From contig NZ_JANQDU010000002.1 of NCBI RefSeq assembly GCF_024723735.1, forward strand, positions 62,001 through 126,000: a DNA stretch of 64,000 bases, in the 5' to 3' direction. Under the pieces are notes generated by a model. It worked only from the letters and a program-made list of their open reading frames with translations, had not been told where the DNA came from and made no database searches. A program made the position numbers and the translations under genes. Below, one piece after another: positions 1 to 54,056 of the stretch. The stretch is from Frigidibacter sp. ROC022 (GTDB lineage: Bacteria > Pseudomonadota > Alphaproteobacteria > Rhodobacterales > Rhodobacteraceae). Each line of letters begins with the position of its first letter. The first letter of the stretch is position 1.

Positions 1-853
1 CGTGCGACCCGTCGTATCGGCTGGGTTCCGGCGGCGTCCAGCCCCTTGGCGCGGCCTTGGGACGGTAGATCTCGATCAGCAGCGGGTAGCAGCGGGCGGT
101 GTCGCTGGAATGCTCGGCACCGCAGTCGCCACCGGGGCAGGCCGAAAGGCCCAGCAGCAGGTCGATTTCGGCGAAGAACTCCAGGAAATCACCGGGACGG
201 ACCGGCGAAGCCTTCATGAAATACTGCCCGGTGTCGCGGCTGAAGCCGGTGCACATGAAGACGTTGAGCACGTCATGCACCAGCGGCTCGGCTTCGGCCG
301 GGCGCATCCCGGTCTCGGCGGCCAGCGCCCGCGTCAGGTTGGAATGGCAGCAATGGTGATAGTCGGTGCCTGACAGAAGCCGCCCGGTATAGGGATCGCA
401 ACGGGTGCCGATCACGTCATGCACGGCGCCGCCGAAGCGGTCGAACCCGTACCAGTCCAGCGTGTCCTCGGTGATCGTCGCCATCGGACGCAGATGCGGG
501 AAGCTGGACCACAGCCGGTCGCCGCCGGACAGATGGGTGCCGTGCAGCGCGCGCGTCTTGCCCGAATAGAACCGCTCGCCGAGATCGCCGGCATTCCAGA
601 GATTCAGATCGCCCACCTGCGGACCTTCGGTCGAGACGATGCGAAAGAACCAGCCCGCCGGAACCCGGGCGCAGGCGGCCTCGCGTGGCGGAACGGTGAC
701 GGTCTGTTCCAGAACCCAGCCTTGCCGGGCCGCACGCAGGCGCTCCAGCCCCGGATCGGGCAGGGTCTCGGGCGGGTAGCAGATCACCGGCGCACAGGCC
801 AGACGCTCGGCGGCGTCGGCGGGGGCGTCATGTTCGGGGGTCTGAGGTTTCAT
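1..853 (-). CDS. DUF1989 (urea carboxylase-associated) family protein, partial
   Basis: An open frame of 284 codons runs off the left edge without a stop, so the C-terminus is missing. I start it at the ATG at 853, preceded by GGAG at a good distance. The protein begins MKPQTPEHDAPADAAERL and carries hallmarks of the DUF1989 family: a PAGWFFRIV segment, GDLNLWN, the histidine/cysteine-rich HCCHSNLTRALA block around residue 180, and GGDCGAEHSSDTARCYPL near the end. Family members are often annotated as urea carboxylase-associated or aminomethyltransferase-associated proteins. The conserved His/Cys residues suggest metal binding, but I know of no settled reaction. It lies downstream of the helicase gene on the same strand, separated by a strong GC hairpin, and is probably transcribed separately. 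Confidence 0.85.
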   Translation of the reverse strand, partial: MKPQTPEHDAPADAAERLACAPVICYPPETLPDPGLERLRAARQGWVLEQTVTVPPREAACARVPAGWFFRIVSTEGPQVGDLNLWNAGDLGERFYSGKTRALHGTHLSGGDRLWSSFPHLRPMATITEDTLDWYGFDRFGGAVHDVIGTRCDPYTGRLLSGTDYHHCCHSNLTRALAAETGMRPAEAEPLVHDVLNVFMCTGFSRDTGQYFMKASPVRPGDFLEFFAEIDLLLGLSACPGGDCGAEHSSDTARCYPLLIEIYRPKAAPRGWTPPEPSRYDGSH

Positions 854-919
854 CGGAGCTCCAGGCAGATCGTCACGGATGTGACGCTAGCCGAGACGCC
901 GGAACTTGCAAGCGATGCG

Positions 920-943
920 CTTCGGGCCCTTGCGGGCCCGAAG
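920..943 (-). terminator. Hairpin between helicase and DUF1989 gene
   Basis: A perfect 10-bp inverted repeat (CTTCGGGCCC / GGGCCCGAAG) with a 4-nt loop lies 8 bp past the helicase stop codon. It has no clear U-tract on the minus strand, so it may be a GC-clamp terminator or a processing/stability hairpin. Confidence 0.5.
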
Positions 944-951
944 CCGGCTGC

Positions 952-2244
952 TCAGGCCGCGCCGACCGACGACCTGCGGCGCTGGCGATGCCGGGCCTTC
1001 GGCTTGGCGCTGCCGTTCGAGCCCTTGCCGCCACCCGCGCGGAACCCGCCCGACTTGAACCCGCCGCCACTGCGGCGACGCTGGTTCTGCACCGGCTTCT
1101 CGATCTGCGATCCGACCCAGGGCGTGCCGCCGATCACCGGCAGGGCATTGCCGATGGTCTTCTCGATGGCGCGGAACTCGTCCATCTCGGCCGGCGAGCA
1201 GAAGGCCACCGCGCGACCGTCCTTGCCGGCCCGCGCGGTGCGGCCGATGCGGTGCACATAGGCGTCCGGGACGTTCGGCAGATCGTAGTTGTAGACATGC
1301 CGCACATCCGGAATGTCGATCCCGCGCGCCGCCACATCCGTGGCCACCAGCACCCGCAACTCACCCGCCTTGAAAGCGGCAAGGGCGCGGTCGCGCTGCC
1401 CCTGGCTCTTGTTGCCGTGGATCGAGCCGGCGGCAAAGCCCCAGTCTTCCAGCAGCTTCTTCAGCTTCTCGGCGCCATGTTTGGTGCGCGAGAAGACCAG
1501 TGCCAGTTCGTCGCGGTGCTGGTCGAGATAGCTTTCCAGCAGCCTGGCCTTTTCGCCCTGGGCGACGAAATGCACCGATTGGTCGATCTTGTCGGCGGTC
1601 TTGCCGGGGGGCGAGACCTCGACCCGGATCGGGCTCTGCAGGTAACTGTTGGCAATCTCGGTGATCAGCTTCGGCATGGTGGCCGAAAACAGCATGGTCT
1701 GGCGCTCTTCGGGCAGCACCTTCACGATCCGGCGCAGCGCGTGGATGAACCCGAGGTCCAGCATCTGGTCGGCCTCGTCCAGCACCAGGAACCGGGTCTG
1801 GCCCAGCGAGATCGAGCCTCGGTCGAGATGGTCGATCAGACGGCCCGGCGTTGCCACCAGGATATCCAGACCGCGTTTCATCTTTTCGGCCTGCGGACGC
1901 AGCGAGGCGCCGCCGACCACGACCGCGGTCTTCAGCGGCGTGCCCTTGGTGAACACGCCGAGGCTGGCCTCGATCTGCTTGGCAAGTTCACGGGTCGGCG
2001 CCAGGATCAGCGCCCGGGCCGTGCCGGGGGCCGGCTTGCCGTGCAGTTTCGACAGTTCCTGGATGATCGGCAGGCCGAAGGCCAGGGTCTTGCCGGTGCC
2101 GGTCTGGGCCAGGCCCATCACGTCGCGGCCGGCGAAGACATGCGGTATGCCCTTCCACTGGATCGGGGTCGGCTCGGTATGGCCGATCTCGGCCAGGCGG
2201 GCCAGGATCCGGTCGGACAGGCCAAGGGTTTTGAAGTCAGACAT
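952..2244 (-). CDS. rhlE: DEAD-box ATP-dependent RNA helicase, RhlE type
   Basis: 430 residues. The start at 2244 (MSDFKTLGLSD) fits the family better than an upstream in-frame start at 2337, which would add 31 non-conserved residues. All superfamily 2 DEAD-box motifs are visible in order: Q motif (GHTEPTPIQ), motif I (AQTGTGKT), Ia (PTRELA), TPGR, motif II (DEAD within VLDEADQMLDLGF), motif III (SAT), and motif VI (HRIGRTARAG). The C-terminal 50 residues form a Gly/Arg/Lys-rich basic tail, as in RhlE-type helicases that remodel structured RNA in ribosome assembly, cold response and RNA decay. It is cytoplasmic. A 388-bp gene-free leader precedes it. RhlE is the best subfamily guess; other DEAD-box subfamilies are less likely. 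Confidence 0.93.
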   Translation of the reverse strand: MSDFKTLGLSDRILARLAEIGHTEPTPIQWKGIPHVFAGRDVMGLAQTGTGKTLAFGLPIIQELSKLHGKPAPGTARALILAPTRELAKQIEASLGVFTKGTPLKTAVVVGGASLRPQAEKMKRGLDILVATPGRLIDHLDRGSISLGQTRFLVLDEADQMLDLGFIHALRRIVKVLPEERQTMLFSATMPKLITEIANSYLQSPIRVEVSPPGKTADKIDQSVHFVAQGEKARLLESYLDQHRDELALVFSRTKHGAEKLKKLLEDWGFAAGSIHGNKSQGQRDRALAAFKAGELRVLVATDVAARGIDIPDVRHVYNYDLPNVPDAYVHRIGRTARAGKDGRAVAFCSPAEMDEFRAIEKTIGNALPVIGGTPWVGSQIEKPVQNQRRRSGGGFKSGGFRAGGGKGSNGSAKPKARHRQRRRSSVGAA

Positions 2245-2632
2245 CAATATTCTTTCGATCGGGCCGGCAGAACCGGCGCGAATACGGACCGTCCCGGCGG
2301 ACCCGCGGGAATCGCAGAGTGCCGGACGGCAGCGCAATAGGGCGGCCAGCTCTGGCAGCGGAACCGGATTGTTCCAATACCGTCAGGCCGTCGGACCCCT
2401 GCGTGATCGTGGGAACCTCGTAAGAGGCCGCATGTTGCGGCCTTCGTCCCGCCCGGGAGCTGTGATTGCACAGAACCGCCTGCTCACGCGGCAGGGGGCG
2501 GGGACAGCCATCACATCGGGGTTCCGGGGGAATAAGTCAAGGGAAGAATTGCTGCACCAGCAAAGAGGGCGGCCCGGGCGGGGCCCGGCCAAGGCGACGG
2601 GTCGGTGCAGCGCCCCGGCCGCGGGCCGGGCG
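2245..2632. other. Gene-free region upstream of the helicase
   Basis: No convincing ORF or tRNA is seen. The region holds the helicase promoter and long leader. A perfect 8-bp stem with a 3-nt loop (AGGCCGCA-TGT-TGCGGCCT) lies at 2425-2443. It could be the terminator of the upstream minus-strand unit or a structure in the helicase 5' UTR. DEAD-box helicase leaders are often long and regulatory, but nothing here proves that. Confidence 0.4.
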
Positions 2633-2803
2633 TCAGATGGTCGGAAAGCGCTGTTCCAGCCAGCACAGCCCGGACGGCGCAGGCAGCGTCCGTTCAGTCT
2701 CCTCGGGCTGCAACGGGCCGGCGCTGCGCTCGATCAGATAGCGCAGAGTCGCCAAGTCGGCCTTGGTCAGGCGCGGCGGCGGAAGCGGAACAGGGTGAGA
2801 CAT
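2633..2803 (-). CDS. Small hypothetical protein (56 aa)
   Basis: The ATG at 2803 is preceded by AGGAGG with a 7-nt spacer, one of the best ribosome binding sites in the window, which argues that this small gene is real. The product starts MSHPVPLPPPRLTKADLA and has a predicted helix (LTKADLATLRYLIERSAG) followed by a Glu/Pro-rich stretch and a tryptophan near the end. There is no signal peptide or membrane segment. I do not recognise a family. It lies 108 bp downstream of sdhB in the same direction and could be co-transcribed with the sdh operon. Confidence 0.55.
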   Translation of the reverse strand: MSHPVPLPPPRLTKADLATLRYLIERSAGPLQPEETERTLPAPSGLCWLEQRFPTI

Positions 2804-2911
2804 GAGACATCCTCCTGCTCCCAATATGCGTGTCGATCCGGGCGGCGCTAAGTCAGGTATTCCGCATCCATGCGGTCGGAATACCCGACCTTCGCCACGA
2901 TTGCGCCGGTC

Positions 2912-3691
2912 TCAGACGACCCGATCGACCATCATCCGCTTGATGTCGGCAATCGCCTTGGCCGGATTGAGACCCTTGGGGCAGGTCTTGGTGCAGTTCA
3001 TGATCGTGTGGCAGCGATAGAGCTTGAACGGGTCTTCCAGCTCGTCCAGACGTTCACCCGTGGCCTCGTCGCGGCTGTCGACGATCCAGCGATAGGCATG
3101 CAGAAGCGCCGCCGGGCCGAGGTATTTGTCGCCGTTCCACCAATAGCTCGGGCAGGCGGTGGAGCAGCTGGCGCACATGACGCATTCGTAAAGCCCGTCG
3201 AGTTTCTTGCGGTCCTCGATCGACTGCCGCCACTCCTTCGCCGGCCGGTTGGTCTTGGTTTCCAGCCAGGGCATGATGCTGGCATGCTGGGCATAGAAAT
3301 GGGTCAGGTCGGGCACCAGATCCTTGACCACCGGCATGTGCGGCAGCGGGTAGATCTTCACGTCACCCTTGATCTGGTCCAGCCCGTAGATGCAGGCCAG
3401 CGTGTTGCCGCCGTCGATGTTCATCGCGCAGGACCCGCAGATCCCTTCGCGGCAGGAGCGCCGGAAGGTCAGGGTCGGGTCGATCTCGGTCTTGATCTTG
3501 ATCAGCGCGTCCAGGACCATCGGGCCGCAGGTGTCGAGATCGACGAAATAGGTGTCTACCCTGGGGTTTTCGCCGTCGTCCGGAGACCAGCGATAGATCT
3601 TGAAGGTCTTCAGATTGGTGGCGCCGGCCGGTTTGGGCCAGGTCTTGCCGACCCGGATGCGGCTGTTCTTCGGCAGAGTGAATTCGACCAT
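2912..3691 (-). CDS. sdhB: Succinate dehydrogenase iron-sulfur subunit
   Basis: 259 residues, the normal alphaproteobacterial length. This is the Fe-S subunit of complex II, passing electrons from the SdhA flavin to ubiquinone at the membrane. The N-terminal plant-type ferredoxin domain carries the 2Fe-2S motif (CREGICGSC followed by a downstream CIYGLDQ). The C-terminal domain carries the two cysteine clusters for the 4Fe-4S and 3Fe-4S centres ([16 protein letters not shown], then [17 protein letters not shown]). It is the last sdh gene of the operon, one base past the DUF3052 gene, and is separated from sdhA by three unrelated small genes. Confidence 0.98.
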
Positions 3692-3692
3692 C

Positions 3693-4133
3693 TCAGAGCC
3701 CTTTCGCGTGTTCGTCCCGCAGATGCTTGCGGATCATCAGTTTCAGTCCGGACCAGACCTCGTCCACGGCGCAGACCTTGACATCGACCAGGATGTCGGA
3801 GAGCGCCCGGGCGCGGATCACGTCCTCGGTCACGTCGGTTTCGACCTTCGAGGCCCTCTTGGGCCAAGAGACCCAGAAGCTGCCCCCCGGCGCCATCCGG
3901 GCCCGCAACGCCGGCGTCGCGGCGTCCAGCTCGGCGGCGGAATCGGTGAAGAGGTGGATGTAGTCCAGCCCCGCACCTTCGATCCCTCGCCAGTCCGGCA
4001 CCGTCTGCAGATCCCGGAACGCCGCCGCGCGGGTCAGGTCGTCCAGGCCCTCGGGCAGCCCGGCAAAGGCCACCGCCAGGCCCTCCTTCAGGCCCAGCTT
4101 CCGGGCCAGGGGGGTGCCGGAATAGCCGCTCAT
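3693..4133 (-). CDS. DUF3052 family protein
   Basis: 146 residues from the ATG at 4133 ([18 protein letters not shown]). This start overlaps the stop of the preceding lipoprotein gene by one base (TGATG), a sign of translational coupling, and matches the conserved family N-terminus; the in-frame upstream start at 4187 would lie inside the neighbour. The pattern [13 protein letters not shown] at the N-terminus, then [19 protein letters not shown] and SGLKLMIRK, is typical of DUF3052. These small cytoplasmic alpha/beta proteins have no established function. The gene sits directly before sdhB within the sdh operon. Confidence 0.85.
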
Positions 4134-4423
4134 CAGCCCAGATCCAGCGGCCGGATCGGCCCCTGACCCGATTTTTCGCGGACACATTGGTCATAGACGT
4201 CATAGGGGTCGCGCCCCTGAAGATAGTCCGACGAGACACTCAGTTCGCCGCCGACCACCGGCCCGCTCTTGGCGGTGGAGACGCCGACATAATAGCTTCC
4301 ATGCACGCCCGTGGCGGCCCGCGCACGCTCTTCGCAGACACGCGCGGCGGCGGCGGGCGACATCGGGCCGCAGGCGGTCAGCGTCAGGGTTCCCAGCACG
4401 GCAAGGATCGAGGCTCGGGTCAT
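4133..4423 (-). CDS. Small lipoprotein of unknown function
   Basis: 96 residues. The N-terminus MTRASILAVLGTLTLTACGP is a lipoprotein signal peptide with lipobox LTAC; the mature protein would be anchored through Cys18. Four more residues of interest are Cys30, the Tyr pair in GSYYVGVS, and a Cys near DQCVREK, which could form a disulfide in the periplasm. It overlaps the upstream fkbM gene by ATGA (4420-4423) and the downstream DUF3052 gene by one base, so it is part of the sdh operon. No known family recognised. Confidence 0.75.
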   Translation of the reverse strand: MTRASILAVLGTLTLTACGPMSPAAAARVCEERARAATGVHGSYYVGVSTAKSGPVVGGELSVSSDYLQGRDPYDVYDQCVREKSGQGPIRPLDLG

Positions 4424-5127
4424 GCGGCAATGCCTTCTTGCTGAGGCCAGCGCGTGAACAGCATGTCCATGTGGCGCGGCATGTCATGGTCGGGCGGAGC
4501 CATCGCAAGCACGTCGCGCAGTTCCAGCCCGGCTTCCGCCAGCCGCGCGATCAGGGCACTGGGCAGCGGCGTCTCGGCAAAGCGGCGGCTGACCGAAACC
4601 TCGGCGACCACGAAGACGCAGCGTCGCAGCGTCTCGCCGGCCCCGTCCAGCACCTCGGCCTCATGGCCTTCGGTATCGATCTTCAGCCCGACGCTGCCGG
4701 GCCGGTCGGCCATGATCTCGTCCAGGCGGCGCACCGGCACCCGGCGCTGCTCGGTCCAGCTCGACCAGTTGCGCGAACCATCGACCCGCCTGTGGAACCC
4801 CGACAGATTGCCGCCGCCGCCGTTGGCCTTGTGGGTCACGGTCAGGTCCATCTCGCCATCTTCCGATCCAAGGGCCACCGCCAGGAATTCGTGCCCCGGC
4901 GGCGCGATCGGTGCCACCAGTTCGGCGCTTTCGCTCAGCGGGTCGATCAGCAGGAATTGCGCCCCCTCGAAGGCCCGATACAGCCAGCCGGTGCCGTCGT
5001 AGACGCCGACATCGACAACGATGTCGGGGGAGAAGCCGAAACGGCGCATGTAGTGCACCGTCTGCTTGATCCGCACCGGTTTCAGCCCGGTCCCCTTCAA
5101 CGCTGCCCTGGCTTGCGGATTGGCCAT
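4420..5127 (-). CDS. FkbM family SAM-dependent methyltransferase
   Basis: 235 residues. A SAM-binding Rossmann fold is shown by VVDVGVYDGTGWLYRAF (motif I) near residue 37 and by the FkbM signature LKIDTEGHEAEVLDG in the C-terminal half. FkbM-type enzymes O-methylate sugars and polyketides; the substrate here is unknown. The start at 5127 lies 7 bp after the sdhA stop, and the 3' end overlaps the lipoprotein gene by ATGA, so it is embedded in the sdh operon between sdhA and sdhB. That location is odd for a methyltransferase usually found in polysaccharide or secondary-metabolite loci. Confidence 0.88.
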   Translation of the reverse strand: MANPQARAALKGTGLKPVRIKQTVHYMRRFGFSPDIVVDVGVYDGTGWLYRAFEGAQFLLIDPLSESAELVAPIAPPGHEFLAVALGSEDGEMDLTVTHKANGGGGNLSGFHRRVDGSRNWSSWTEQRRVPVRRLDEIMADRPGSVGLKIDTEGHEAEVLDGAGETLRRCVFVVAEVSVSRRFAETPLPSALIARLAEAGLELRDVLAMAPPDHDMPRHMDMLFTRWPQQEGIAA

Positions 5128-5134
5128 GGCGCCC

Positions 5135-6937
5135 TCAGTAGACCCGGGCTTTCGGGGCGATCTTCTTGAGCGCGATGCCGCCCTCGGCCTCGGCCGTCAG
5201 CGGTTCCAGATGCACCGGGCGATAGCTCAGATCGACCTTGTTGCCGTTCACCCGGGTCAGCGAATGCTTGCGCCAGTTCTTGTCGTCGCGCTCCGGGTAA
5301 TCCTCGTGCGCATGGGCGCCGCGGCTTTCCTTGCGCGCCTCGGCGCCGACGATGGTGGCCAGCGCGTTCGGCATCAGGTTGGTCAGTTCCAGCGTCTCCA
5401 TCAGATCGCTGTTCCAGACCAGGCTGCGGTCGGTGATGCCGAGATCGGAGATCTTGCCGGCAATCGCGGTCATCGCCTTGACACCTTCGGCCAGGCTCTT
5501 GTCGGTGCGGAACACCGCCGCATCGGCCTGCATCGCCTTCTGCATCTCCAGCCGCAGTTCGGCGGTCGGCACCGGCCCCTTGGCGTGGCGCAGCCGGTCG
5601 AACCGGTCCAGCGCCGCATCGACGCTGGCGGTGTTGGTCGCCGGAACCGGGCTGGCCGGGTCGATCACCTCCCGCGCCTTGATCGCCGCGGCGCGGCCGA
5701 AGACCACCAGGTCGATCAGCGAGTTCGAGCCCAGCCGGTTGGCGCCATGCACGCTGGCACAGCCGGCCTCGCCCACTGCCATCAGCCCGGGCTGGATCGC
5801 GTCGGGGTCGTCCTTGGTCGGGTTCAGCACCTCGCCCCAGTAGTTCGTCGGGATGCCGCCCATGTTGTAATGCACCGTGGGCAGCACCGGGATCGGTTCC
5901 TTGGTCAGATCGACGCCGGCGAAAATCCGGGCACTCTCGGAAATGCCGGGCAACCGCAACGCCAGCGTTTCCGGAGGAATGTGGCTGAGGTTGAGGTGCA
6001 GGTGATCCTTGTTGGGACCGACGCCGCGGCCTTCGCGGATCTCGATCGTCATGCAGCGCGAGACGACATCGCGGCTGGCCAGGTCCTTGTAGGTCGGGGC
6101 GTAGCGTTCCATGAACCGCTCGCCTTCCGAGTTGGTCAGATAGCCGCCCTCGCCCCGCGCACCCTCGGTGATCAGGCAGCCGGCGCCGTAGATGCCGGTG
6201 GGGTGGAACTGGACGAACTCCATGTCCTGCAGGGGCAGCCCGGCCCGCGCCACCATGCCGCCACCGTCGCCGGTGCAGGTATGGGCGCTGGTGGCCGAGA
6301 AGAACGCCCGGCCATAGCCGCCGGTGGCCAGTACGACCATCTTGGCGTTGAAGACATGCATCGTGCCGTCATCGAGCTTCCAGGCCACGACACCGGTGCA
6401 GACCCCGTCCGTCATGATCAGGTCGATGGCGAAATACTCGATGTAGAACTCGGCCTTCTGCTTCAGGCTCTGGCCATAGAGCGTGTGCAGGATGGCGTGG
6501 CCGGTGCGGTCGGCGGCGGCGCAGGTGCGCTGCACCGGCGGGCCTTCGCCGAATTCGGTGGTATGGCCGCCGAAGGGCCGCTGATAGATCCTGCCGTCTT
6601 CGGTGCGGCTGAACGGAACGCCGTAATGCTCCAGCTCGTAGACCGCCTTGGGCGCCTCGCGGGTCAGGTATTCCATGGCGTCCATGTCGCCCAGCCAGTC
6701 GCTGCCCTTGACGGTGTCATACATGTGCCACTGCCAGTTGTCGGGCCCCATGTTCGACAGGCTGGCGGCGATACCGCCCTGCGCCGCGACGGTGTGGCTG
6801 CGGGTCGGAAAGACCTTGGTGATGCAGGCGGTGCGCAGCCCCTGCTCGGCCATTCCCAGGGTGGCCCGCAGGCCAGAACCGCCGGCGCCGACCACGACCA
6901 CATCGTAGTCGTGGGTCTCGTATTCATATGCCGCCAT
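5135..6937 (-). CDS. sdhA: Succinate dehydrogenase flavoprotein subunit
   Basis: 600 residues, full length. This catalytic subunit of complex II oxidises succinate to fumarate with covalently bound FAD. The N-terminal dinucleotide motif [14 protein letters not shown], the flavinylation histidine in [10 protein letters not shown], the substrate-binding and active-site segments [12 protein letters not shown] and [15 protein letters not shown], and the C-terminal [15 protein letters not shown] are all present. It lies 9 bp after sdhD in the sdhCDA core of the operon. Confidence 0.98.
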
Positions 6938-6946
6938 GTCGTTCCC

Positions 6947-7318
6947 TCAGAGCGCGATGCGGGCAAGGGCATAGAGCCCGACCGCCATCACCAGATAGGC
7001 GAGCCCGATCGCCAGGATGAACAGGCCCTTGCGCAGCGACCCGCGCCAGTAGTCCGAGACCAGCATATAGGCCCCGCGCCAGAAGTGGTTCATGCCGACG
7101 ACCAGGACCAGCGCGGTGAGGATCGCCATGAACGGGTTCGAAAAGGCCTCGATCACCTCGGCCCGGGTGCCGCCCATGGCACGGCCGAAGAGCACCAGGA
7201 AGATCGGCACCAGGCAGGCCAGCGTCACCGACGTGACGGTCATGTACCAATGGTGGTCGGTGCCGTGGCCGGAAGCCCCCTTGCCCTCGGCCCGTTTGCG
7301 GTCGGTCAGATAGCGCAT
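6947..7318 (-). CDS. sdhD: Succinate dehydrogenase membrane anchor subunit
   Basis: 123 residues with three predicted transmembrane helices (around residues 27-48, 62-85 and 97-120). This is the small hydrophobic anchor that with SdhC binds heme b and ubiquinone. The N-terminus MRYLTDRKRAEGKGASGHGTDHHW is the usual alphaproteobacterial form with a conserved His-rich stretch, and GMNHFWRGAYMLVSDYWRG contains the conserved heme/quinone-region residues. It follows sdhC by 13 bp. Confidence 0.95.
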   Translation of the reverse strand: MRYLTDRKRAEGKGASGHGTDHHWYMTVTSVTLACLVPIFLVLFGRAMGGTRAEVIEAFSNPFMAILTALVLVVGMNHFWRGAYMLVSDYWRGSLRKGLFILAIGLAYLVMAVGLYALARIAL

Positions 7319-7331
7319 TGTCTTGCCTCCC

Positions 7332-7715
7332 TCAGACCAGGAACAGGGTGATGACGGTCAGAACGACCGAACCGATGACACAGGCCCAGCCCAGCTTTTC
7401 CGCCGTGGGCAGGTCCAGCCCGTGACCCGCGTCCCACCACAGATGCCGGAGCCCGGCGAGGTAGTGATACCAGACCGCCCAGAGGCTGAGGGTGAAGACC
7501 AGATCGCCGAACCAGCCGGTGACAACCGCATCGGCGGTGGCGAAGGCGGCGTCCGAGGTCGCCGCGGCGGCCAGCCACCAGACCCCGAGCGCGAAGGCAA
7601 CCAGAAGCGCGTTGCCGGTCAACCGGGTCAGGATCGACGACATCGAGGTAATCTGCGGGCGATAGATTTGCAGGTGCGGCGAAAGCGGTCTCTCGACCGT
7701 CGTGACATCATCCAT
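7332..7715 (-). CDS. sdhC: Succinate dehydrogenase cytochrome b556 subunit
   Basis: 127 residues. It begins with the family signature RPLSPHLQIYRPQITSMSS followed by three hydrophobic helices; the heme-ligand region HYLAGLRHLWWDAGHGLDL is present. It is the first gene of the sdh operon. The 171-bp gap to the mch stop contains the promoter and a striking twin-palindrome operator at 7851-7883. Confidence 0.96.
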   Translation of the reverse strand: MDDVTTVERPLSPHLQIYRPQITSMSSILTRLTGNALLVAFALGVWWLAAAATSDAAFATADAVVTGWFGDLVFTLSLWAVWYHYLAGLRHLWWDAGHGLDLPTAEKLGWACVIGSVVLTVITLFLV

Positions 7716-12174: not shown

Positions 12175-12636
12175 TCATGCCGGCTCGATCCGGTCGCCGG
12201 GCCGGATGTCTCCGCCCTCGATGATCCGGCAGTTCAGCCCCGAGCGGTGGATCAGCGGCTCATAGACCTTCTTGCCGGTCACCAGTTCCAGCAGCCGGCA
12301 GGGAACATTCAGCCGCCCGCCTTCCAGAACCACCGAGCCGACCCGGAACCGGCGCCCGACCAGATGGTTGAGCGGCACGCCCTCGGTCGTCAGGTTGCGC
12401 CGGTGCTCGTCCGGGGAGAGGTCGATGTCATGGTCGCGTTTCAGGGCGGCGAGCGACTCGGATTCGATCAGCGTCACCTCGCGGATATCCGGGATGCTGG
12501 AATATGTCCCGGTCCCCAGCACATAGCGGTCGCCCTCGATCCCCTGCCCGGCCAGCAGCCGCGCGCTCTCCTGCCGCCGCATCGGCGCACGCGCCTCTGT
12601 GGTGGTGTGGATCGCAAGCAAGCTGCCGTGCCACAT
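12175..12636 (-). CDS. MOSC domain protein
   Basis: 153 residues, an isolated MOSC (molybdenum cofactor sulfurase C-terminal) domain. Supporting segments are GQGIEGDRYVLGTGTYS, REVTLIESE, HRRNLTTEGVPLNHLVGRRF, the conserved cysteine in RLNVPCRLLELV, and LNCRIIEGGDIRPGD. Stand-alone MOSC proteins are thought to handle sulfur or molybdenum-cofactor chemistry, some as components of N-hydroxylated-base reduction systems. It lies between sucB and lpd in the same direction, and its link to the complex, if any, is unknown. Confidence 0.9.
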   Translation of the reverse strand: MWHGSLLAIHTTTEARAPMRRQESARLLAGQGIEGDRYVLGTGTYSSIPDIREVTLIESESLAALKRDHDIDLSPDEHRRNLTTEGVPLNHLVGRRFRVGSVVLEGGRLNVPCRLLELVTGKKVYEPLIHRSGLNCRIIEGGDIRPGDRIEPA

Positions 12637-12670
12637 AACCCTGCCTCCTGCCCCGGACCTACCGATGTCC

Positions 12671-13891
12671 CTAGAGGTCCATCAGCAGACGGCGCGGGTC
12701 TTCCAGCGCCTCTTTCACCCGGACAAGGAAGGTCACGGCGCCCTTGCCGTCGACGATCCGGTGATCGTAGCTCAGCGCCAGATACATCATCGGGCGGATC
12801 ACGATCTCGCCGCCGACCACGACCGGGCGATCCTGGATCTTGTGCATCCCCAGAATGCCCGACTGCGGCGGGTTCAGGATAGGAGAGGACATCAGCGAGC
12901 CGTAGACGCCGCCGTTCGAGATGGTGAAGGTCCCGCCCTGCATCTCGGCCATCGACAGCTTGCCTTCGCGCGCCTTGGCGCCCATCTCGGCGATTGCCTT
13001 CTCGATCTCGGCAAAGGACATCGCGTCGGCATTGCGGATCACCGGCACCACGAGCCCCGTCGGCGTGCCCGCCGCGATCCCCATATGGACGAAGTTCTTG
13101 TAGACCACATCGGTGCCGTCGATCTCGGCGTTGACCTCCGGCACCTCGTGCAGAGCATGGACGCAGGCCTTGGTGAAGAACGACATGAAGCCCAGCTTGA
13201 CGCCGTGTTTCTTCTCGAACATCACCTTGTATTCGTTACGCAATTCCATGATCGCCGACATGTCCACCTCGTTATAGGTGGTCAGCATCGCGGCGGTGTT
13301 CTGGGCGTCCTTCAGGCGCCGCGCGATGGTCTGGCGCAGCCGGGTCATCTTGACCCGCTCCTCGCGCGCGGCATCGTCGGCGCTGACCGGACCGCGCGGC
13401 GGGGCCGGCGGCGGCGCGGCAGTCGCGGCGGCTGCGGGGGCGGACACCGCCTTGGCCACATCCTCCTTCATCACCCGACCGTCCTTGCCGGTGCCGGTCA
13501 CGGCATCCTTGGACAGCCCGGCCTCGGCCATCGCCTTCTTGGCCGAGGGCGCATCCTCGGGGTCGCGGGCCTTGCCCGAGGCTTCGGCAGGTGCCGGCGC
13601 GGGGGCTTCGGGCTCGGCGGCCTTCGCCGCAGGCTTGGCGGGCGCGGCGGCGGCGCCCTCGGCGATCGTCGCCAGCAGCGCATTCGCCCCCACCGTCTCG
13701 CCCTCGGCAGTGATGATCTCCGACAGGGTCCCGGCGGCCGGCGCGGCCACCTCGACCGTCACCTTGTCGGTCTCCAGCTCGCACAGCATCTCGTCCATCG
13801 CCACGGCATCGCCGGGCTTCTTGAACCAGGTGGCAACGGTCGCCTCGGAGACGCTTTCGCCCAGGGGCGGCACGCGGACTTCGGTGGACAT
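12671..13891 (-). CDS. sucB: 2-oxoglutarate dehydrogenase E2, dihydrolipoyl succinyltransferase
   Basis: 406 residues. It transfers succinyl groups from SucA to CoA and forms the core of the complex. Domains in order: lipoyl domain with the lysine in [18 protein letters not shown] (around residues 35-52); an Ala/Pro/Glu-rich linker; an E3-binding domain ([19 protein letters not shown], then [11 protein letters not shown]); a second flexible linker; and the catalytic domain ending in [16 protein letters not shown] with the active-site His and Asp. It starts 2 bp after the sucA stop, typical of sucAB. Confidence 0.97.
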
Positions 13892-13893
13892 GA

Positions 13894-16845
13894 CTACTTC
13901 CCTTCGATCTTCAGCGCGTCATTGATCAGCGCGGTTTGCTGGGCCTTGTGCTGCGAAACGAGGCCGGTGGCAGGCGAGGCCGATGCATGGCGTCCGGCAT
14001 AGGTGGGTCGGCCGTGCTTGGCGCCGATCCGGCCCAGAACCCATTCGATGTTCGGCTCGATGAAGTTCCAGGCGCCCTGGTTCTTGGGCTCTTCCTGGCA
14101 CCAGACCATCTCGGCCTGCTTGAAGCGTTCCAGTTCCTTGACCAGCGACAGGGCCGGGAACGGGTAGAACTGTTCGACCCGGAGCAGGTAGATATCGTCG
14201 ATCCCGGCGGCATCGCGGGCTTCCAGCAGGTCGTAGTAGACCTTGCCCGAGCACATGACCACGCGCCTGATCTTCGAGTCCGGCACCAGCTTGGTGTCGG
14301 AATGCCCTTTCTGCGCATCGTCCCAGAGAACCCGGTGGAAGGACGAGCCGGTGGTGAAATCCTCGGCATCCGAGACGCACATCTTGTGCCGCAACAGCGA
14401 CTTGGGCGTCATCAGCACCAGCGGCTTGCGGTAGCTGCGATGCAGCTGCCGGCGCAGGATGTGGAAGTAGTTCGCCGGGGTCGAGCAGTTGGCGACGATC
14501 CAGTTGTCCTCGGCGCACATCTGCAGGAACCGCTCCAGCCGGGCGCTGGAATGCTCCGGCCCCTGGCCTTCGTAGCCATGCGGCAACAGGCAGACGAGGC
14601 CCGACATCCGCAGCCATTTGCGTTCGCCCGAGGAAATGAACTGGTCGAACATGATCTGGGCGCCATTGGCGAAATCGCCGAACTGCGCTTCCCACAGCGT
14701 CAGGGCGTTCGGTTCGGCCAGCGAATAGCCGTATTCGAAGCCCAGCACCGCATATTCCGACAGCATCGAGTCGATCGCCTCGAACCGGGCCTGGCCGGGC
14801 CGGATATGGTTGAGGCTGAAGTAGCGCTCGTCATTGGTCTGGTCGATCAGCGCCGAATGCCGGTGCGAGAAGGTGCCCGAGATCGAATCCTGCCCCGACA
14901 GCCGCACCGGATAGCCCTCGGTCAGCAGGCTGCCGAAGGCCAGCGCCTCGGCCGTCGCCCAGTCGAAGTTCTTGCCGGTCCTGAACATCTCGGCCTTGTT
15001 GTCGAGCATCTTCTCGACGGTCCGGTGCAGGGTGAATCCCGGCGGCTTGGCGACCAGCGCGGCACCGACCTCCTTCAGCAGCTTCTTCGGAATCGCGGTC
15101 TCGCCGCGGTCGTATTCCTTGCCCTCGCGGTCGAGATGCGACCACTTGCCGTCCAGCCAGTCGGCCTTGTTCGGCTTGTATTCCTTCCCGGCCTCGAACT
15201 CTTCGTTCAGCTTCGCCTGGAAGGCCGCCTTCATGTCCTCGATCTCGCCTTCCGGGATCAGCCCGTCGGCCACAAGGCGTTCGGTATAAAGCTGCAGCGT
15301 CGATTTCTGCTTCTTGATGTGCGAATACATCACCGGGTTGGTGAACATCGGCTCGATGCCTTCGTTATGGCCGAAGCGGCGATAACAGAAGATGTCGATG
15401 ACCACGTCCTTGTGGAATTTCTGGCGGAACTCGGTCGCCACCTTGGCGGCATGGACCACCGCTTCCGGGTCGTCGCCGTTGACGTGGAAGATCGGCGCCT
15501 CGACCATCAGGGCGATGTCCGTCGGATAGGGCGAGGAGCGCGAGAAGGCCGGCGCCGTGGTAAAGCCGATCTGGTTGTTGACGACGACATGGATCGTGCC
15601 GCCGGTGCGGTGCCCGGTCAGGCCCGAGAGACCGAAACACTCGGCGATGATCCCCTGCCCGGCAAAGGCGGCGTCGCCGTGCAGCAGGATCGGCAGCACC
15701 TTGGTCCGGTCGGTATCGTTCAACTGGTATTGCTTGGCCCGCGCCTTGCCCAGAACCACCGGGTTCACCGCTTCCAGGTGGCTCGGGTTGGCGGTCAGGC
15801 TGAGGTGGACGGTGTTGCCGTCGAAGGTCCGGTCCGAGGAGGCGCCGAGGTGATACTTCACGTCGCCCGAGCCTTCCACGTCCTCGGGCTTGAAACTGCC
15901 GCCCTGGAATTCGTTGAAGATCGCCCGGTAGGGCTTCATCATCACGTTGGTCAGCACGTTCAGGCGGCCGCGGTGCGGCATCCCGAAGACGATTTCCTTC
16001 ACCCCCAGGGCGCCGCCGCGCTTGATGATCTGCTCCAGCGCCGGGATCAGGCTTTCGCCGCCGTCCAGGCCGAAACGCTTGATCCCCATGTATTTGACAT
16101 GCAGGAACTTCTCGTAGCCCTCGGCCTCGACCAGCTTGTTCAGGATCGCCTTGCGGCCTTCCCGGGTGAACTGGATTTCCTTGCCGTAGCCCTCGATCCG
16201 CTCCTTCAGCCAGCCGGCCTGCTCCGGGTCCGAGATATGCATGTACTGCAGCGCAAAGGTGCCGCAATAGGTGCGTTTCACGATCTCGACGATCTGCCGC
16301 ATCGTGGCATGTTCCAGGCCCAGGACCTTGTCGATGAAGATCGGCCGGTCCATGTCGGCCTCGGTGAAGCCGTAGCTCTTCGGATCCAGCTCGGGATGGT
16401 CGGTGCGGTTGAGCATCCCCAGCGGGTCGAGATCGGCGGCCAGATGGCCCCGGATCCGATAGGCGCGGATCAGCATCAGCGCCCGGATGCTGTCCAGCAC
16501 CGCGCGGCGGACCTGATCCTCGGTGACGGCAATCCCGGCTTCGGCGGCCTTGGCCTTGATCTTCTCGCCCTGCGCGGCCGGCTCGGCCCATTGCCCGTCC
16601 AGCGCCGCGGTCAGCTCGTCATGCGGTGCCGGCGGCCAGTCGTCCCGCGCCCAGGACGGCCCGGCGGCCTCGGCCTTGGCATCCAGCTCGGACTCGCCCA
16701 TCTGCCGGAAGAACTCGGCCCATGCACCATCGACCGAAGTCGGGTCCTCTGCGTAGCGGGCCTGAAGCTGTTCGAGATATTCGGCGTTGTGTCCCTGCAG
16801 AAAGGACGAAGCGCGGAATTGGTCGTTCGGGGATTGCTCGGTCAT
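13894..16845 (-). CDS. sucA: 2-oxoglutarate dehydrogenase E1 (thiamine-dependent)
   Basis: 983 residues, normal for alphaproteobacteria. It decarboxylates 2-oxoglutarate with thiamine diphosphate and succinylates the SucB lipoyl arm. An N-terminal segment ([18 protein letters not shown]) is the SucB-binding region. The core includes [44 protein letters not shown] (thiamine/Mg site), [19 protein letters not shown], and the C-terminal transketolase-like domain with [17 protein letters not shown]. The start overlaps the upstream secreted-protein gene by ATGA. Confidence 0.98.
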
Positions 16846-17579
16846 GGGTGTTTCCTGACGTTGCGGCTGTTGCGCGGATTGGGTTGCGTGACGGGCGGTT
16901 CGGGCGGGGCGGCGGCGTCGAAGGAATAGCTGACGATGATCGACTGGGCGCCCAGAAGCGGCGGTTCGGGCGTGAAGGGCGGCGCGATCACGATCCAGTC
17001 GTAATGCAGCGCCCGATAGCCCGGCAGGTCGGGGTTCTCGGAAAAGCCGCCGAACGAGCCATGGAGGGGCCGGGCGTGATCCGGCTGGCGGGCCTTCGGC
17101 TGGGCCATGGCCTCGGCCACGGCGGGAAGATCGGTGCCGGTCATGTAGCAGTTGACCAAGCTGTCTCCGGCAGAAGCTTCATAGAACGTCAATCCGGCCG
17201 AGAGACCCTCGTGGACCATCACCAACAGCCAGTCGTCGCCCATCTCGGCCCGTTGATGCGCCTTCTCGATGAAATGGCGGTAGTCCTCGGGCGTATCCAA
17301 CCGCGGCAGCATCTGGACCATGGACTGGACCTCGCCCAACGCACGCAGCGCCCGCGTCCGCCCGGCGCCCTGCGCCTCGGCCCAGCCCGCCATCTCGAAG
17401 GCGGCGCGGAAACCCTCGACATCGGGACTGGCGGCCAGACAGGGCGCCGCGATGCCCGAGGCGTCATAGGCGGGACCGGCCAGCGCCGGGGTGGCCAGGC
17501 CCAGGCACAAGGCGGCTGCCAGCGCCGGCGGAACCGGCACTGCCCAGGACTCGCCCAAGACCGGACCCGCGCGCATCAC
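16842..17579 (-). CDS. Exported hypothetical protein between sucD and sucA
   Basis: 245 residues with a Sec signal-peptide-like N-terminus (ALAAALCLGLATPALAGPAYD, cleavage predicted after ALA). The mature part holds several cysteines (APCLAAS, VNCYMTG) and two hydrophobic beta-rich stretches (YDWIVIAPPF, SIIVSYSFDA). The exact start is uncertain: a GTG at 17579 or ATG at 17576, just 1-4 bp after the sucD stop. The 3' end overlaps sucA by ATGA, so it is locked into the sucD-sucA transcript. No family recognised. Confidence 0.8.
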   Translation of the reverse strand: MMRAGPVLGESWAVPVPPALAAALCLGLATPALAGPAYDASGIAAPCLAASPDVEGFRAAFEMAGWAEAQGAGRTRALRALGEVQSMVQMLPRLDTPEDYRHFIEKAHQRAEMGDDWLLVMVHEGLSAGLTFYEASAGDSLVNCYMTGTDLPAVAEAMAQPKARQPDHARPLHGSFGGFSENPDLPGYRALHYDWIVIAPPFTPEPPLLGAQSIIVSYSFDAAAPPEPPVTQPNPRNSRNVRKHP

Positions 17580-17580
17580 C

Positions 17581-18462
17581 TTACCCGATCGCTTTCAGGA
17601 CGGCCTCGCCCAGGCCCGCCGGGCTGTCGGCCACCACGATGCCGGCGCTCTTCATCGCCTCGATCTTCGATTCCGCATCGCCCTTGCCGCCCGAGACGAT
17701 CGCCCCGGCATGGCCCATCCGGCGGCCCGGAGGCGCGGTGCGCCCGGCAATGAAGCCTGCGACCGGCTTCTTGCGGCCCTTCTTCGCCTGTTCCTTCAGG
17801 AACTCGGCGGCTTCCTCCTCGGCCGAACCGCCGATCTCGCCGATCATGATGATCGACTGGGTTTCGTCGTCGTCCAGGAACATGTCGAGAATGTCGATAT
17901 GCTCGGTGCCCTTGATCGGGTCGCCGCCGATGCCGATGGCCGAGGACTGTCCCAGCCCGACATCCGTGGTCTGCTTGACCGCCTCATAGGTCAGCGTGCC
18001 CGAACGCGAGACCACGCCCACCGTGCCGCGCTTGAAGATGCTGCCCGGCATGATGCCGATCTTGCAGGCATCCGGGGTCATCACGCCGGGGCAGTTCGGC
18101 CCGATCAGCCGCGTGGCCGAACCGTCCAGCGCCCGCTTGACCTTCATCATGTCCAGCACCGGGATGCCCTCGGTGATGCAGACCACCAGCGGCACCTCGG
18201 CGTCGATCGCTTCCAGGATCGAATCCGCGGCGAAGGGCGGCGGCACGTAGATCACGCTGGCATTGGCACCGGTCTCGGCCACCGCCTCGTGCACCGAGTT
18301 GTAGACCGGCAGGTCCAGATGCGTCGTGCCGCCCTTTCCCGGAGTGACCCCGCCGACCATCTTGGTGCCGTAGGCAATCGCCTGTTCGGTGTGGAACGTG
18401 CCCTGGCTTCCGGTCAGGCCCTGGCAGATCACCTTGGTGGTTTCGTCAACGAGTATCGCCAT
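17581..18462 (-). CDS. sucD: Succinyl-CoA synthetase alpha subunit
   Basis: 293 residues. With SucC it converts succinyl-CoA to succinate with substrate-level phosphorylation. It shows the CoA-binding N-terminus [44 protein letters not shown], and the phosphohistidine loop [19 protein letters not shown]. Unusually it is not directly next to sucC: two small exported-protein genes lie between them, about 1 kb in all. Confidence 0.98.
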
Positions 18463-18703
18463 CTTGTGGCTCCTTGGTCAGTGGTGGCGCCGGGGCGCGG
18501 CGGCGGAAAGGGACCACGGGGCCTCGGTCGGCCCCCTGGATGCGAAGAACTGCGCCGGTCGCCCCGGGGCAGGTAGGGTCTGTGTCGCGCAGATCAATGG
18601 CCCGGCCGCCACGGTGGCGGCGACCCCCCGTGCCGCGCGATGCTGCGCGGCGGGACCGGGAACGGGCTGGGTGATTGCGGACTGGGTCATCTTGTCGGGC
18701 CGC

Positions 18704-18892
18704 TCAATGCGGCGTTTCCTCCTGCGGGCCGCAGCGCACCGGGTATTTCGACGCCATGTGCTGGAACGTCTCGCCCGGCAGGTCCTGACAGCGGCCACGT
18801 CCCACTTCGGGGGCGACCTGGGGCCCGACCGTCAGCGGCACGCAGCCGCCCAGGGCCAGGGTCAGCCCGATCATCCATCCCGCAAGTTTCAT
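18704..18892 (-). CDS. Small lipoprotein (62 aa)
   Basis: The ATG at 18892 follows GAGGAGTTGGGACC, a good ribosome binding site. The N-terminus MKLAGWMIGLTLALGGCVPL is a lipoprotein signal with lipobox LGGC. The 46-residue mature part contains two further cysteines (GRCQDLPG and VRCGPQE) that could form a disulfide. A longer in-frame start at 18931 overlaps the upstream gene stop and is less likely. It follows the 162-aa exported protein by 35 bp, in the sucC-sucD interval. No family recognised. Confidence 0.7.
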   Translation of the reverse strand: MKLAGWMIGLTLALGGCVPLTVGPQVAPEVGRGRCQDLPGETFQHMASKYPVRCGPQEETPH

Positions 18893-18927
18893 GGTCCCAA
18901 CTCCTCTTGTGCGCCCGGGCCCCCGGG

Positions 18928-19416
18928 TCACTCGGCCTCGACCAGCAGAGCCGCCCCGGCGACGGGGCCGAACTCGAAACGCCTGGCGACAAAGACATTC
19001 GACAGCCTGTTGTTCAGCATCCCGGAATAGAGCACCGTCACCTCCCTGGTCGGCGGGGTCAGCTTGCTGGCGCCGGGCATCTGCCGGAGCAGAGCATCGA
19101 CCAGTTGCCCGGCCTTACGGGTGCTCAGCTTGTGCTCCATGACGACGCAGCGCAGCCCGGTCTCGGCACTGCCCTTGGTGCCCGCCACGGTCTTGCCATC
19201 CGGCGAAAGGAACATCTGCATCCCGCCCATGTCGCCCTGGCTGACGAAGCCGGCGGCGGCAAATCCGCTGGCGATGGTCGCGGGGGTCGGGAAACCCGTG
19301 GCGCAGGCAGACAGCGCCGCGCGGGTGTCGGAGGGACCGGCAACAGCGGCCGAAGCCAGACCAGCCGCCAGCGCCAGGACGGCACCGAAACCTGCATGGC
19401 TGGCCTTGAACATCAT
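18928..19416 (-). CDS. Exported hypothetical protein downstream of sucC
   Basis: 162 residues with a signal peptide ([21 protein letters not shown]). The mature part has cysteines in LSACATGFP and LRCVVMEHK and a mixed alpha/beta pattern ([14 protein letters not shown]). An AGGAGAGC ribosome binding site precedes the tandem ATGs at 19416/19413. It lies 57 bp after sucC in the same direction, so it is probably co-transcribed. Function unknown. Confidence 0.8.
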
Positions 19417-19473
19417 GCTCTCCTGCCTGGCATGGGATCGTCCATCTCGCGCCCCCTCGCCCGCGCGCCCCGT

Positions 19474-20667
<1,194 letters not shown>

Positions 20668-20779
20668 CGCAAGTGCCTGCCTTTCGAAACGGTCCGGTTT
20701 CCCGCGTCATGCCAAAGCGGCCCGTCAAAATACAGGGATTTTCGATGTTAGCGCATTGAACCGCGGCAAAAAGAGGATT

Positions 20780-20812
20780 TTGTGATCACGGCATTCCGGG
20801 CCGTGATCACAA
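20780..20812. promoter_or_regulatory. Twin-palindrome operator upstream of sucC
   Basis: GTGATCAC occurs at 20782-20789 and 20803-20810, 21 bp apart, inside a perfect 13-bp inverted repeat (TTGTGATCACGGC / GCCGTGATCACAA). It lies 113 bp upstream of the sucC start. The core sequence and the phasing are identical to the site upstream of sdhC; the spacers differ, so the match is not a simple duplication. Confidence 0.78.
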
Positions 20813-20832
20813 GCACCCGTTCCCGAAACGAC

Positions 20833-22047
20833 TCAGTTGAACAGCACCGCGAAAAGCATTCCCCGACCCTGCATCAGACGGTCGAAGCTGCGCCAGCTGC
20901 GGCTGCTGATCCGCTCGCCGGTCTCGGCATAGGGCAGCGCCCCGATGCCCTGCACCCAGGCGAACAGATCGACCGGGCGCGGGTCCTCGAACATCCTGCG
21001 CAGGTTCAGCCCGGCGCCCTCGCCCAGCCGCCAGTAGGGCAGAAGCAGTTCACCCTTCAGCAGCCGGTCGGCGTCGTCCAGCACCTTCAGCCATTCCTCG
21101 CCGGCATTCGGCGGCATTTCCAGGCCCAGGGCCGAATGCTGGCGGGCATTGGGGATCCACTCCATTGCATCGTCGGTCTCGGCCGCGGCCAACCGCCAGA
21201 AATCGTGATTGGCCCGCACAACCTCCTCGAACCGCTGCAGCGCCCTTGCCGCGTGGTCGCGGTCGGGCTGCTGCGCCAGCGCGCGCTGGACCGCCACCGC
21301 ACTGTCGACGAAACGGCCGAAATTCATGTCCATCGCGTTGAGCATCGGCTGGCCGTCATTGACCGCCGCCAGACCCTGATTGGCCGCCATCACATCGGCA
21401 ATCGCCCGGGTCGGGTCATAGGCCAGCACCAGCTCGCCCACGCCTTCGATCAGCGCGGCATAGGCGCTCAGCCAGCGGCTGTCGGCGACATCGAAGCGGA
21501 TGGTGATCTGCTCCAGCCCGCCGGAGTCGAAGCCGGTCCGGGCAAACAGCGCCATGCCCAGCACCTCGTGGAACTCCTCGCCGGCGCCGCGCCGGCCATC
21601 GCCGTCGATGTCGAACCACAGATCCGCCGGCCGCAGTTCCAGCCCGAAATCCGAGTCCTCCGGGATCGCCGCCAACTGGGCCCGCGCCGCCGCCATTTCC
21701 GCGATCAGCCCGCCAAAGATGTCGCGCACCAGATCGGCACGGAACGGTTGCGGGGCCGGGTTCTCGGGCACCGTCAGGCGCAGCACCGGGATCATGTTCA
21801 TCTCGGGGCTGAAGGCATGGTCGTAGCGCGCCTGAAGCGCCGCCTCGACCCCGCCCAGAAACCGCAGCCCGGCCAGGGCAAAGCGCTCGGCATCATCCGG
21901 CGCCGGCAAGGCGGCCAGCCGGTCGCGGGTCGCGGTGATGCCGGTCTCGCCGATCTCGGCCGAGATCCCCTCGGCGGCAAGGGGCGAGGCGAGCATGTGG
22001 GTGGAGAGCAGAACCAGGCCGAACAGGCCCGACAGAAAGGGTCGCAT
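20833..22047 (-). CDS. Large exported hypothetical protein
   Basis: 404 residues with a signal peptide (FLSGLFGLVLLSTHMLASPLAA) and an otherwise soluble, helical, probably periplasmic body. An EF-hand-like loop DIDGDGRRGAGEE lies near residue 150 and could bind calcium. Other notable stretches are AYDPTRAIADVMAANQGL and a C-terminal ISSRSWRSFDRLMQGRG. An AAGGAG ribosome binding site precedes the ATG. It lies between mdh and sucC on the same strand. I do not recognise a named family. Confidence 0.85.
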   Translation of the reverse strand: MRPFLSGLFGLVLLSTHMLASPLAAEGISAEIGETGITATRDRLAALPAPDDAERFALAGLRFLGGVEAALQARYDHAFSPEMNMIPVLRLTVPENPAPQPFRADLVRDIFGGLIAEMAAARAQLAAIPEDSDFGLELRPADLWFDIDGDGRRGAGEEFHEVLGMALFARTGFDSGGLEQITIRFDVADSRWLSAYAALIEGVGELVLAYDPTRAIADVMAANQGLAAVNDGQPMLNAMDMNFGRFVDSAVAVQRALAQQPDRDHAARALQRFEEVVRANHDFWRLAAAETDDAMEWIPNARQHSALGLEMPPNAGEEWLKVLDDADRLLKGELLLPYWRLGEGAGLNLRRMFEDPRPVDLFAWVQGIGALPYAETGERISSRSWRSFDRLMQGRGMLFAVLFN

Positions 22048-53496: not shown

Positions 53497-54054
53497 ATGA
53501 AACTGACAAGAACCGCGCTGGACGGCGTGGTGATCCTCGAACCGCAGCGTTTCGGCGACCACCGCGGGTTCTTCTCGGAAAGCTACAATCGGCGTCGGAT
53601 GGTCGAGGCCGGGCTCGACCTGGACTTCGTGCAGGACAACCATTCGCTCAGCCGCCAGACCGGGACCGTGCGGGGCCTGCACTTCCAGGCCCCGCCGCAT
53701 GCCCAGGCCAAGCTGGTGCGCTGCGGGCGCGGGCGGATCTTCGACGTGGCCGTGGACATAAGGCAAGGCAGCCCGAGCTACGGACAATGGGTGGGCGTCG
53801 AGCTGTCCTTTGACAACGGCTTGCAGTTGATGATCCCGGAAGGCTTCCTGCATGGTTTCATGACGCTCGAGCCGGACAGCGAGATCATCTACAAATGCAC
53901 CGATTACTATGCCCCCGACTGTGACGGGGCGGTGCTCTGGAACAGCTGCGGGATCGACTGGCCGAATCCCGGCACCGCGCCGGTCCTGTCCGAGAAAGAC
54001 CTCAAGGCCCCGGCCTTCGCGGCCTTCGACAGCCCGTTCCGGGCCGGGAGCTAA
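53497..54054 (+). CDS. rfbC: dTDP-4-dehydrorhamnose 3,5-epimerase
   Basis: 185 residues. Cupin-fold epimerase with [37 protein letters not shown] (catalytic His), DVRQGSPS-type segment [35 protein letters not shown], and [18 protein letters not shown]. Third step in dTDP-L-rhamnose synthesis. First gene of the rfbCBDA operon, 2 bp before rfbB. Confidence 0.97.
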
Positions 54055-54056
54055 CG

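Follow-up and report, generated by a model that had tools for sequence, protein, structure and literature searches.

An FkbM-family methyltransferase gene lies between sdhA and sdhB in the sdh operon of Frigidibacter sp. ROC022, within the 64,000-nucleotide stretch of DNA analyzed here (the window). The reading that we regard as probable is that this junction is an exchange slot in the operon and that fkbM is a guest in it, most likely methylating a sugar in a glycan that is secreted or exposed on the cell surface. Such a slot would often carry small lipoprotein genes, and tailoring-enzyme genes would come and go, at least one of them through homologous recombination, the incoming DNA already bearing sdhA and sdhB ends. 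The window fkbM would belong to a sublineage so far found in the sdhA-sdhB slot alone, and would be transcribed together with the respiratory operon. Its product would be a soluble SAM-dependent O-methyltransferase acting in the cytosol, on a sugar of the glycan itself or on a lipid- or nucleotide-linked precursor.

Three coupled genes between sdhA and sdhB

The sdh genes of the window all lie on the minus strand: sdhC (7332-7715; cytochrome b556 subunit; PF01127 and TIGR02970), sdhD (6947-7318; membrane anchor; PF01127 and TIGR02968), sdhA (5135-6937; flavoprotein; TIGR01816, 935 bits), and sdhB (2912-3691; iron-sulfur subunit; NF004616, 379 bits), with sdhA forming the upstream wall of the slot and sdhB the downstream wall. 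Between the walls, on the same strand, are fkbM (4420-5127; 235 aa), identified as a class I SAM-dependent methyltransferase gene from PF05050, TIGR01444, the tree, and a structure model; a gene for a small lipoprotein of a slot-typical family (4133-4423; 96 aa); and a gene for a DUF3052-like protein (3693-4133; 146 aa), named from a family comparison and remote resemblance to PF11253. The sdhA-fkbM gap is 7 bp, fkbM overlaps the lipoprotein gene in ATGA, the lipoprotein gene overlaps the DUF3052-like gene in TGATG, and 1 bp separates the latter from sdhB; ATG is the start codon of all four downstream genes. Coordinates and junctions thus confirm what the preliminary description had claimed, an insertion of three coupled genes within the operon beginning 7 bp from sdhA. 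Because these junctions are too tight for an intergenic promoter, a single transcript running from sdhA through the three inserted genes to sdhB is likely. Nor is the insertion a matter of chance, since other genera also have fkbM homologues between sdhA and sdhB. No island of foreign composition was seen: the GC and GC3 contents of the three inserted genes resemble those of the operon, and the GC content of fkbM is 0.675, against 0.667 for the window.

The lipoprotein contains the motif LTLTAC, in which the lipobox LTAC was read directly; it has no Pfam or NCBIfam match and clusters with proteins from the same gap of other genera (cluster s3). Relatives of the third protein occur in the slots of two other genera (G269 and G012) and elsewhere in genomes. 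This protein was at first called DUF3052, a label that its family bears out in part and the window protein itself does not: PF11253 matches three of six aligned family members (best E value, 2.3e-4), and the window protein has no Pfam match up to an E value of 10. A 67% identical protein from locus L187 reaches 15.6 bits, against a PF11253 cut-off of 22.7. The label reflects remote resemblance only, and we use the name DUF3052-like.

Width and content of the sdhA-sdhB interval

A proteogenomic study of Ruegeria pomeroyi from 2012 described non-conserved genes within sdhCDAB as common in members of the Roseobacter group and as not common in other bacteria, and demonstrated, using RT-PCR, co-transcription of one such gene, SPO_PG016 (93 aa), with the flanking SPO0360 and SPO0361 (PMC3305630). 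That study concerns the same operon in the same clade and places non-conserved genes in both sdhCDAB and sucCD of roseobacters; unlike the present analysis, its main text never mentions a sulfotransferase, methyltransferase, or lipoprotein, and its section on these genes surveys neither content nor turnover nor mechanism. A literature search, with most subscription journals outside its scope, found no earlier description of a tailoring-enzyme slot with turnover, of a slot-only FkbM lineage, or of a recombination scar in the slot.

The preliminary description had proposed a comparison of sdhA-sdhB intervals, which was carried out within the family on two samples. The first comprised 88 genera, with one genome per genus, taken best sdhB match first from the matches listed among 377 matching genomes. 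Its sdhA-sdhB gap had a median of 773.5 bp (range, 10 to 5027; n = 88); the sdhC-sdhD gap had a median of 11 bp (maximum, 27; n = 87), and the sdhD-sdhA gap a median of 18 bp (maximum, 429), being at most 100 bp in 84 of 87 genera and wider in 3. The second sample, mostly of lower-scoring genomes, was taken from 124 matching genomes of a 129-genome draw, minus those already sampled; 60 stretches were taken and one (L335), on which sdhA was absent, was dropped. In these 59 further genera the median sdhA-sdhB gap was 634 bp, with at most 101 bp in 10 and more than 300 bp in 49. The median sdhC-sdhD gap was again 11 bp (maximum, 23; n = 58), and that of sdhD-sdhA was 15 bp, exceeding 400 bp in 2 of 58. 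Controls were 28 loci, one for each other alphaproteobacterial family among the best-scoring families: the sdhA-sdhB gap was at most 100 bp in 23; three loci had gaps of 285 to 527 bp, and at the other two sdhA was absent within 1.5 kb. A wide sdhA-sdhB gap is therefore common in the Rhodobacteraceae-type family and rare among the controls.

The sucC-sucD gap varies too: among 29 other genera with both genes on the stretch, 26 have gaps of between 4 and 1226 bp, mostly with small ORFs called; one of the remaining three genera has there a gene related to the putative sulfotransferase family s4. The effect seen at sdhA-sdhB is therefore partly not specific to sdh. The suc genes of the window itself (12175-22047, labels assigned by eye) are likewise interleaved with extra ORFs, at 19416-18928 and 18892-18704 between sucC and sucD, at 17576-16842 between sucD and sucA, and at 22047-20833 upstream of sucC; a MOSC-like ORF lies at 12582-12175.

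Slot genes were called with a simple ORF caller that misses genes (fkbM of L052 was recovered by tblastn) and sometimes leaves long gaps uncalled, and counts of occupied slots are probably underestimates. Among the 88 genera, 14 slots were empty (≤101 bp), 39 had small or no called ORFs only, and 35 carried a tailoring-type gene, 6 of these depending on the putative family s4 alone. Of the 64 small proteins encoded on the sense strand of these slots, 41 carry a lipobox-like motif, compared with 6.9 in shuffles. Nearly all called slot genes of at least 150 aa (45 of 49, a raw share with s4 counted by motif) were of sulfo-, methyl-, glycosyl-, or pyruvyltransferase type. Counts of FkbM genes over six whole genomes gave 2 to 6 matches in each, one match being under the cut-off. 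Longer tailoring-type genes were also present in 12 of the 59 further genera (L287, L291, L306, L307, L314, L323, L324, L329, L332, L336, L339, and L342), with L287, L306, L336, L339, and one gene of L314 assigned by eye and the rest by BLAST to annotated slot genes.

A Pfam scan of slot representatives returned Sulfotransfer_1, Sulfotransfer_3, FkbM, Methyltransf_24, glycosyltransferase models 1, 4, 25, and 61, and polysaccharide pyruvyltransferase; a glycosyltransferase 2-like match (c11) was under the cut-off, and the long slot genes of L167 and L172 had no Pfam match. The one clear non-transferase among the annotated slot enzymes was a nitroreductase, in L126. Several genes are fusions: a 526-aa sulfotransferase-FkbM protein in Carideicomes alvinocaridis (L093, 7222-8802; the same as L045), whose sulfotransferase part scores 21.2 bits, just below the cut-off of 22; a 560-aa protein with two sulfotransferase-type parts (L116, 5293-6975); and a 538-aa fusion of methyltransferase-24 and glycosyltransferase (L189, 4414-6030). 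Family s5, a sulfotransferase family also found outside the slot, matched sulfotransferase structures with a best E value of 6e-7. Family s6 has no profile match; the best structure matches of its model (pLDDT 80.6) were sulfotransferases, with a best E value of 3.4e-4 and TM-scores below 0.5. Family s4 is a putative sulfotransferase family that occurs in 9 of the 88 genera; its members show a motif like HxGxQKTG(S/T)T, and two single members match Pfam models weakly. In a profile comparison, hhalign gave no profile link of s4 or s6 to s5. Across the sdhA/sdhB slots surveyed, constant flanks thus enclose variable content, as in an exchange locus.

Antisense genes were observed inside the slot in L126, L138, L167, L101, L066, and L093, and sdhB therefore probably needs its own promoter in such slots. 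One locus, L055, comes from a record titled Enemella evansiae, an actinobacterium, and carries an sdh operon typical of this alphaproteobacterial family; the assembly is probably mislabeled or contaminated.

Descent, selection, and probable turnover

Nine of 394 genera proved to have a sense-strand fkbM in the slot position, with neighbors examined for the best 30 of 99 matching genomes. An alignment scan returned 62 named loci and placed fkbM between sdhA and sdhB in 35 of them on the sense strand and in one, L066, on the antisense strand; the remaining 26 have fkbM without flanking sdhA and sdhB on the stretch, L085 having a distant SdhA-like match only. A tree built from 72 rows unites the 38 sense-strand slot copies, including that of the window, in a single clade (support 99/94, from a bootstrap that had not quite converged), to which none of the 31 off-slot copies belongs. 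The antisense copies L066, L101, and L102 (the L102 stretch has sdhA and no sdhB) group instead with off-slot Ruegeria copies (support 82/99), which suggests that FkbM genes probably reached the slot more than once. A further FkbM type occupies the slot of L149 and L324. The two surveyed sets of 88 and 59 genera, in which sdhA and sdhB share one stretch, yielded no called fkbM of the slot clade, known carriers having been sampled apart.

The ratio dN/dS for fkbM was 0.016 to 0.33 in 13 of 14 pairs; the 14th gave 0.96, with a dS of 0.01. Compared with sdhA, fkbM had the higher value in 12 of the 14 pairs. By this measure, fkbM is under purifying selection, with weaker constraint than sdhA in those 12 pairs. 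The preliminary description held that restriction to one strain together with relaxed selection would speak against its proposal; the arrangement recurs at 38 sense-strand loci, and selection is not relaxed, although it is looser than on sdhA. Given these loci and the low dN/dS in 13 pairs, fkbM fits the description of a maintained guest better than that of a neutral passenger.

The closest FkbM relative among the matches listed, at 67% identity, is from Pseudoruegeria sp. HB172150, in which fkbM is followed by a lipoprotein gene and then by a putative sulfotransferase gene in the position that the DUF3052-like gene takes in the window. A horizontal exchange of fkbM linking the window lineage and Pseudoruegeria was considered and is unsupported: grouping of the window sdhA with that of L031 was not rejected by the AU test (P = 0.30), and fkbM may therefore have been plainly inherited from a common ancestor of the window and L031.

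Slot contents were mapped as labels onto an sdhA tree of 128 loci, a quick build that is weakly resolved, with 26 of 125 inner branches starred. Observed label changes, compared with shuffled means, numbered 22 versus 23.1 for sulfotransferase, 16 versus 32.9 for fkbM, 14 versus 13.5 for empty slots, and 11 versus 10.7 for other glycan-type genes; the starred branches alone force 7, 5, 6, and 8 changes, respectively. Because few branches are starred, we regard turnover of slot content as probable rather than measured. Closely related genomes were compared within one genus (L171 and L203 to L216), where the interval is 634 to 751 bp in 12 of 15. It is 990 bp in L215 and 1836 bp in L206, which has a glycosyltransferase-61-like gene, and it reaches 2045 bp in L209, with a glycosyltransferase-like gene and a 95-aa ORF that resembles a methyltransferase; the nearest relative of L209, L213 (92.1% nucleotide identity in sdhA), is without either.

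One slot retains a scar. In genome G302 (L097), a 75-aa in-frame ORF (2039-2266) between the lipoprotein gene and fkbM, directly before fkbM, corresponds to SdhB residues 1 to 49 and the last 36 residues of SdhA, as if it were the expected remnant of a single crossover with DNA carrying the end of sdhA, fkbM, and the start of sdhB. None of 2000 shuffles reached the score of either half. A scan of 178 slots found both halves in L097 only, with 8 matches in slots versus 2 in reversed slots at an E value of <0.01 and 3 versus 0 at <0.001; recombination is therefore shown for one case, and we infer that it is also the general route. In metagenome bins L037 and L038, identity is mostly 0.65 to 0.80 upstream, rises sharply to 0.98 to 1.0 inside sdhA, and remains near-complete through the slot and sdhB. 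This step may be a second case of recombination or an artifact of metagenome assembly.

Likely role of fkbM and related systems

The assignment to the FkbM family, made initially from the sequence alone, was borne out by scores of 55 bits against PF05050 (cut-off, 22.7) and 53.8 bits against TIGR01444 (cut-off, 37.7). These were the only matches in Pfam and NCBIfam at an E value of ≤0.1, a search in which no UbiE/UbiG-type quinone methyltransferase model matched. The structure model (pLDDT 92.1) is predicted to adopt a class I SAM-dependent methyltransferase fold with its SAM loop, DxGxxxG, of which D39, G41, and G45 are invariant across 33 sequences. With VIA-align 2, the model superposed on the solved FkbM structure 2py6 with a Z score of 12.8 (rmsd, 3.1; 168 aligned). 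By sequence, no solved relative was found at an E value of ≤0.1 with the single FkbM protein, and an alignment gave one chance-level row (E = 0.55). No secretion signal was seen on reading the sequence.

What the enzyme methylates has to be judged largely from the company that it keeps. Among its clade-mates, fkbM overlaps sulfotransferase-type genes in L037, L047, and L048 and is fused to one in L093; because the slot holds this fusion as well as glycosyltransferases and pyruvyltransferases, we favor O-methylation of a surface glycan. The same enzyme could instead act on a small molecule or membrane lipid, with the slot still exchanging tailoring enzymes, since small molecules and lipids are also tailored by sulfotransferases and methyltransferases and are also among the substrates of FkbM enzymes. 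The small-molecule O-methyltransferase COMT heads the VIA-align 2 list (Z score 13.0, tied with the 12.8 of 2py6), and the Foldseek list is led by other SAM methyltransferases, with 2py6 not among the best 50 rows. We nonetheless consider this reading unlikely, as slots of other genera contain matches to polysaccharide pyruvyltransferase and to glycosyltransferase models 25 and 61, and as the L126 nitroreductase is the sole clear exception to a transferase content among the annotated slot enzymes.

The preliminary description had offered two other options, methylation of a quinone-like compound or respiratory-complex lipid, and a passenger gene. The second holds as far as fkbM would be a guest, and its patchy occurrence (the 9 of 394 genera noted above, from the best 30 of 99 genomes examined), its window-like GC content, and its looser constraint relative to sdhA would all suit a tolerated operon insertion without selected function. 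Neutrality is very improbable, given the dN/dS of 0.016 to 0.33 in 13 pairs, an outlier of 0.96 that rests on a dS of 0.01, and a single clade across many genera with 38 of 38 sampled members in the slot. The respiratory option fares worse still and was rejected as highly improbable: tight coupling inside sdhCDAB speaks for it, but no quinone methyltransferase profile matches at an E value of ≤0.1, a sense-strand slot copy turned up in only 9 of the 394 genera (best 30 hits examined), no slot-clade fkbM was called in the separately sampled 88 and 59 genera, and the remaining slot guests, among them sulfo-, glycosyl-, and pyruvyltransferases, are mostly of glycan type.

The favored reading, a slot guest acting on a surface or secreted glycan, invites comparison with known systems. 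The window protein resembles FkbM methyltransferases (PF05050, TIGR01444, and 2py6) in profile scores, fold, and SAM loop, and differs in that its sublineage has so far been found between sdhA and sdhB only. RfbT of Vibrio cholerae (PF05575) is an O-antigen methyltransferase that acts as a serotype switch; its related profile matches slot FkbM proteins of other types, in L149 (E = 3.7e-7, above the cut-off) and the antisense L101 (E = 0.021), whereas the window FkbM is unmatched at an E value of ≤0.1. Capsule and O-antigen loci are exchanged between conserved flanking genes. The sdh slot shares with them constant flanks, variable content of apparently glycan type, and, in one case, the trace of a probable flank recombination; it differs in having one to few tailoring genes where those loci have an entire pathway, and in lying within a central-metabolism operon. 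Elsewhere in the window, at 53497-56829, four consecutive genes resemble rmlC, rmlB, rmlD, and rmlA of dTDP-rhamnose synthesis, as labeled by eye.

A bolder proposal, which we put forward tentatively, is that the sdhA-sdhB junction of Rhodobacteraceae-type bacteria serves as a small serotype-like cassette site, in which homologous recombination within two highly conserved core genes swaps sulfo-, methyl-, and glycosyltransferases and so quickly resets surface chemistry, with expression tied to the tricarboxylic acid cycle operon; phage or grazer pressure, for instance, could drive such swapping. If this is true, a core respiratory operon would, in a major group of marine bacteria, also house a locus for surface decoration that changes fast, and any genome of the family would offer a simple place to seek genes for surface chemistry and perhaps for phage sensitivity. 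It would also become testable how a central-metabolism operon withstands repeated insertions that separate the genes for two subunits of the same complex, and dozens of slot genes now labeled as hypothetical members of the sdh operon would gain an explicit hypothesis of function.
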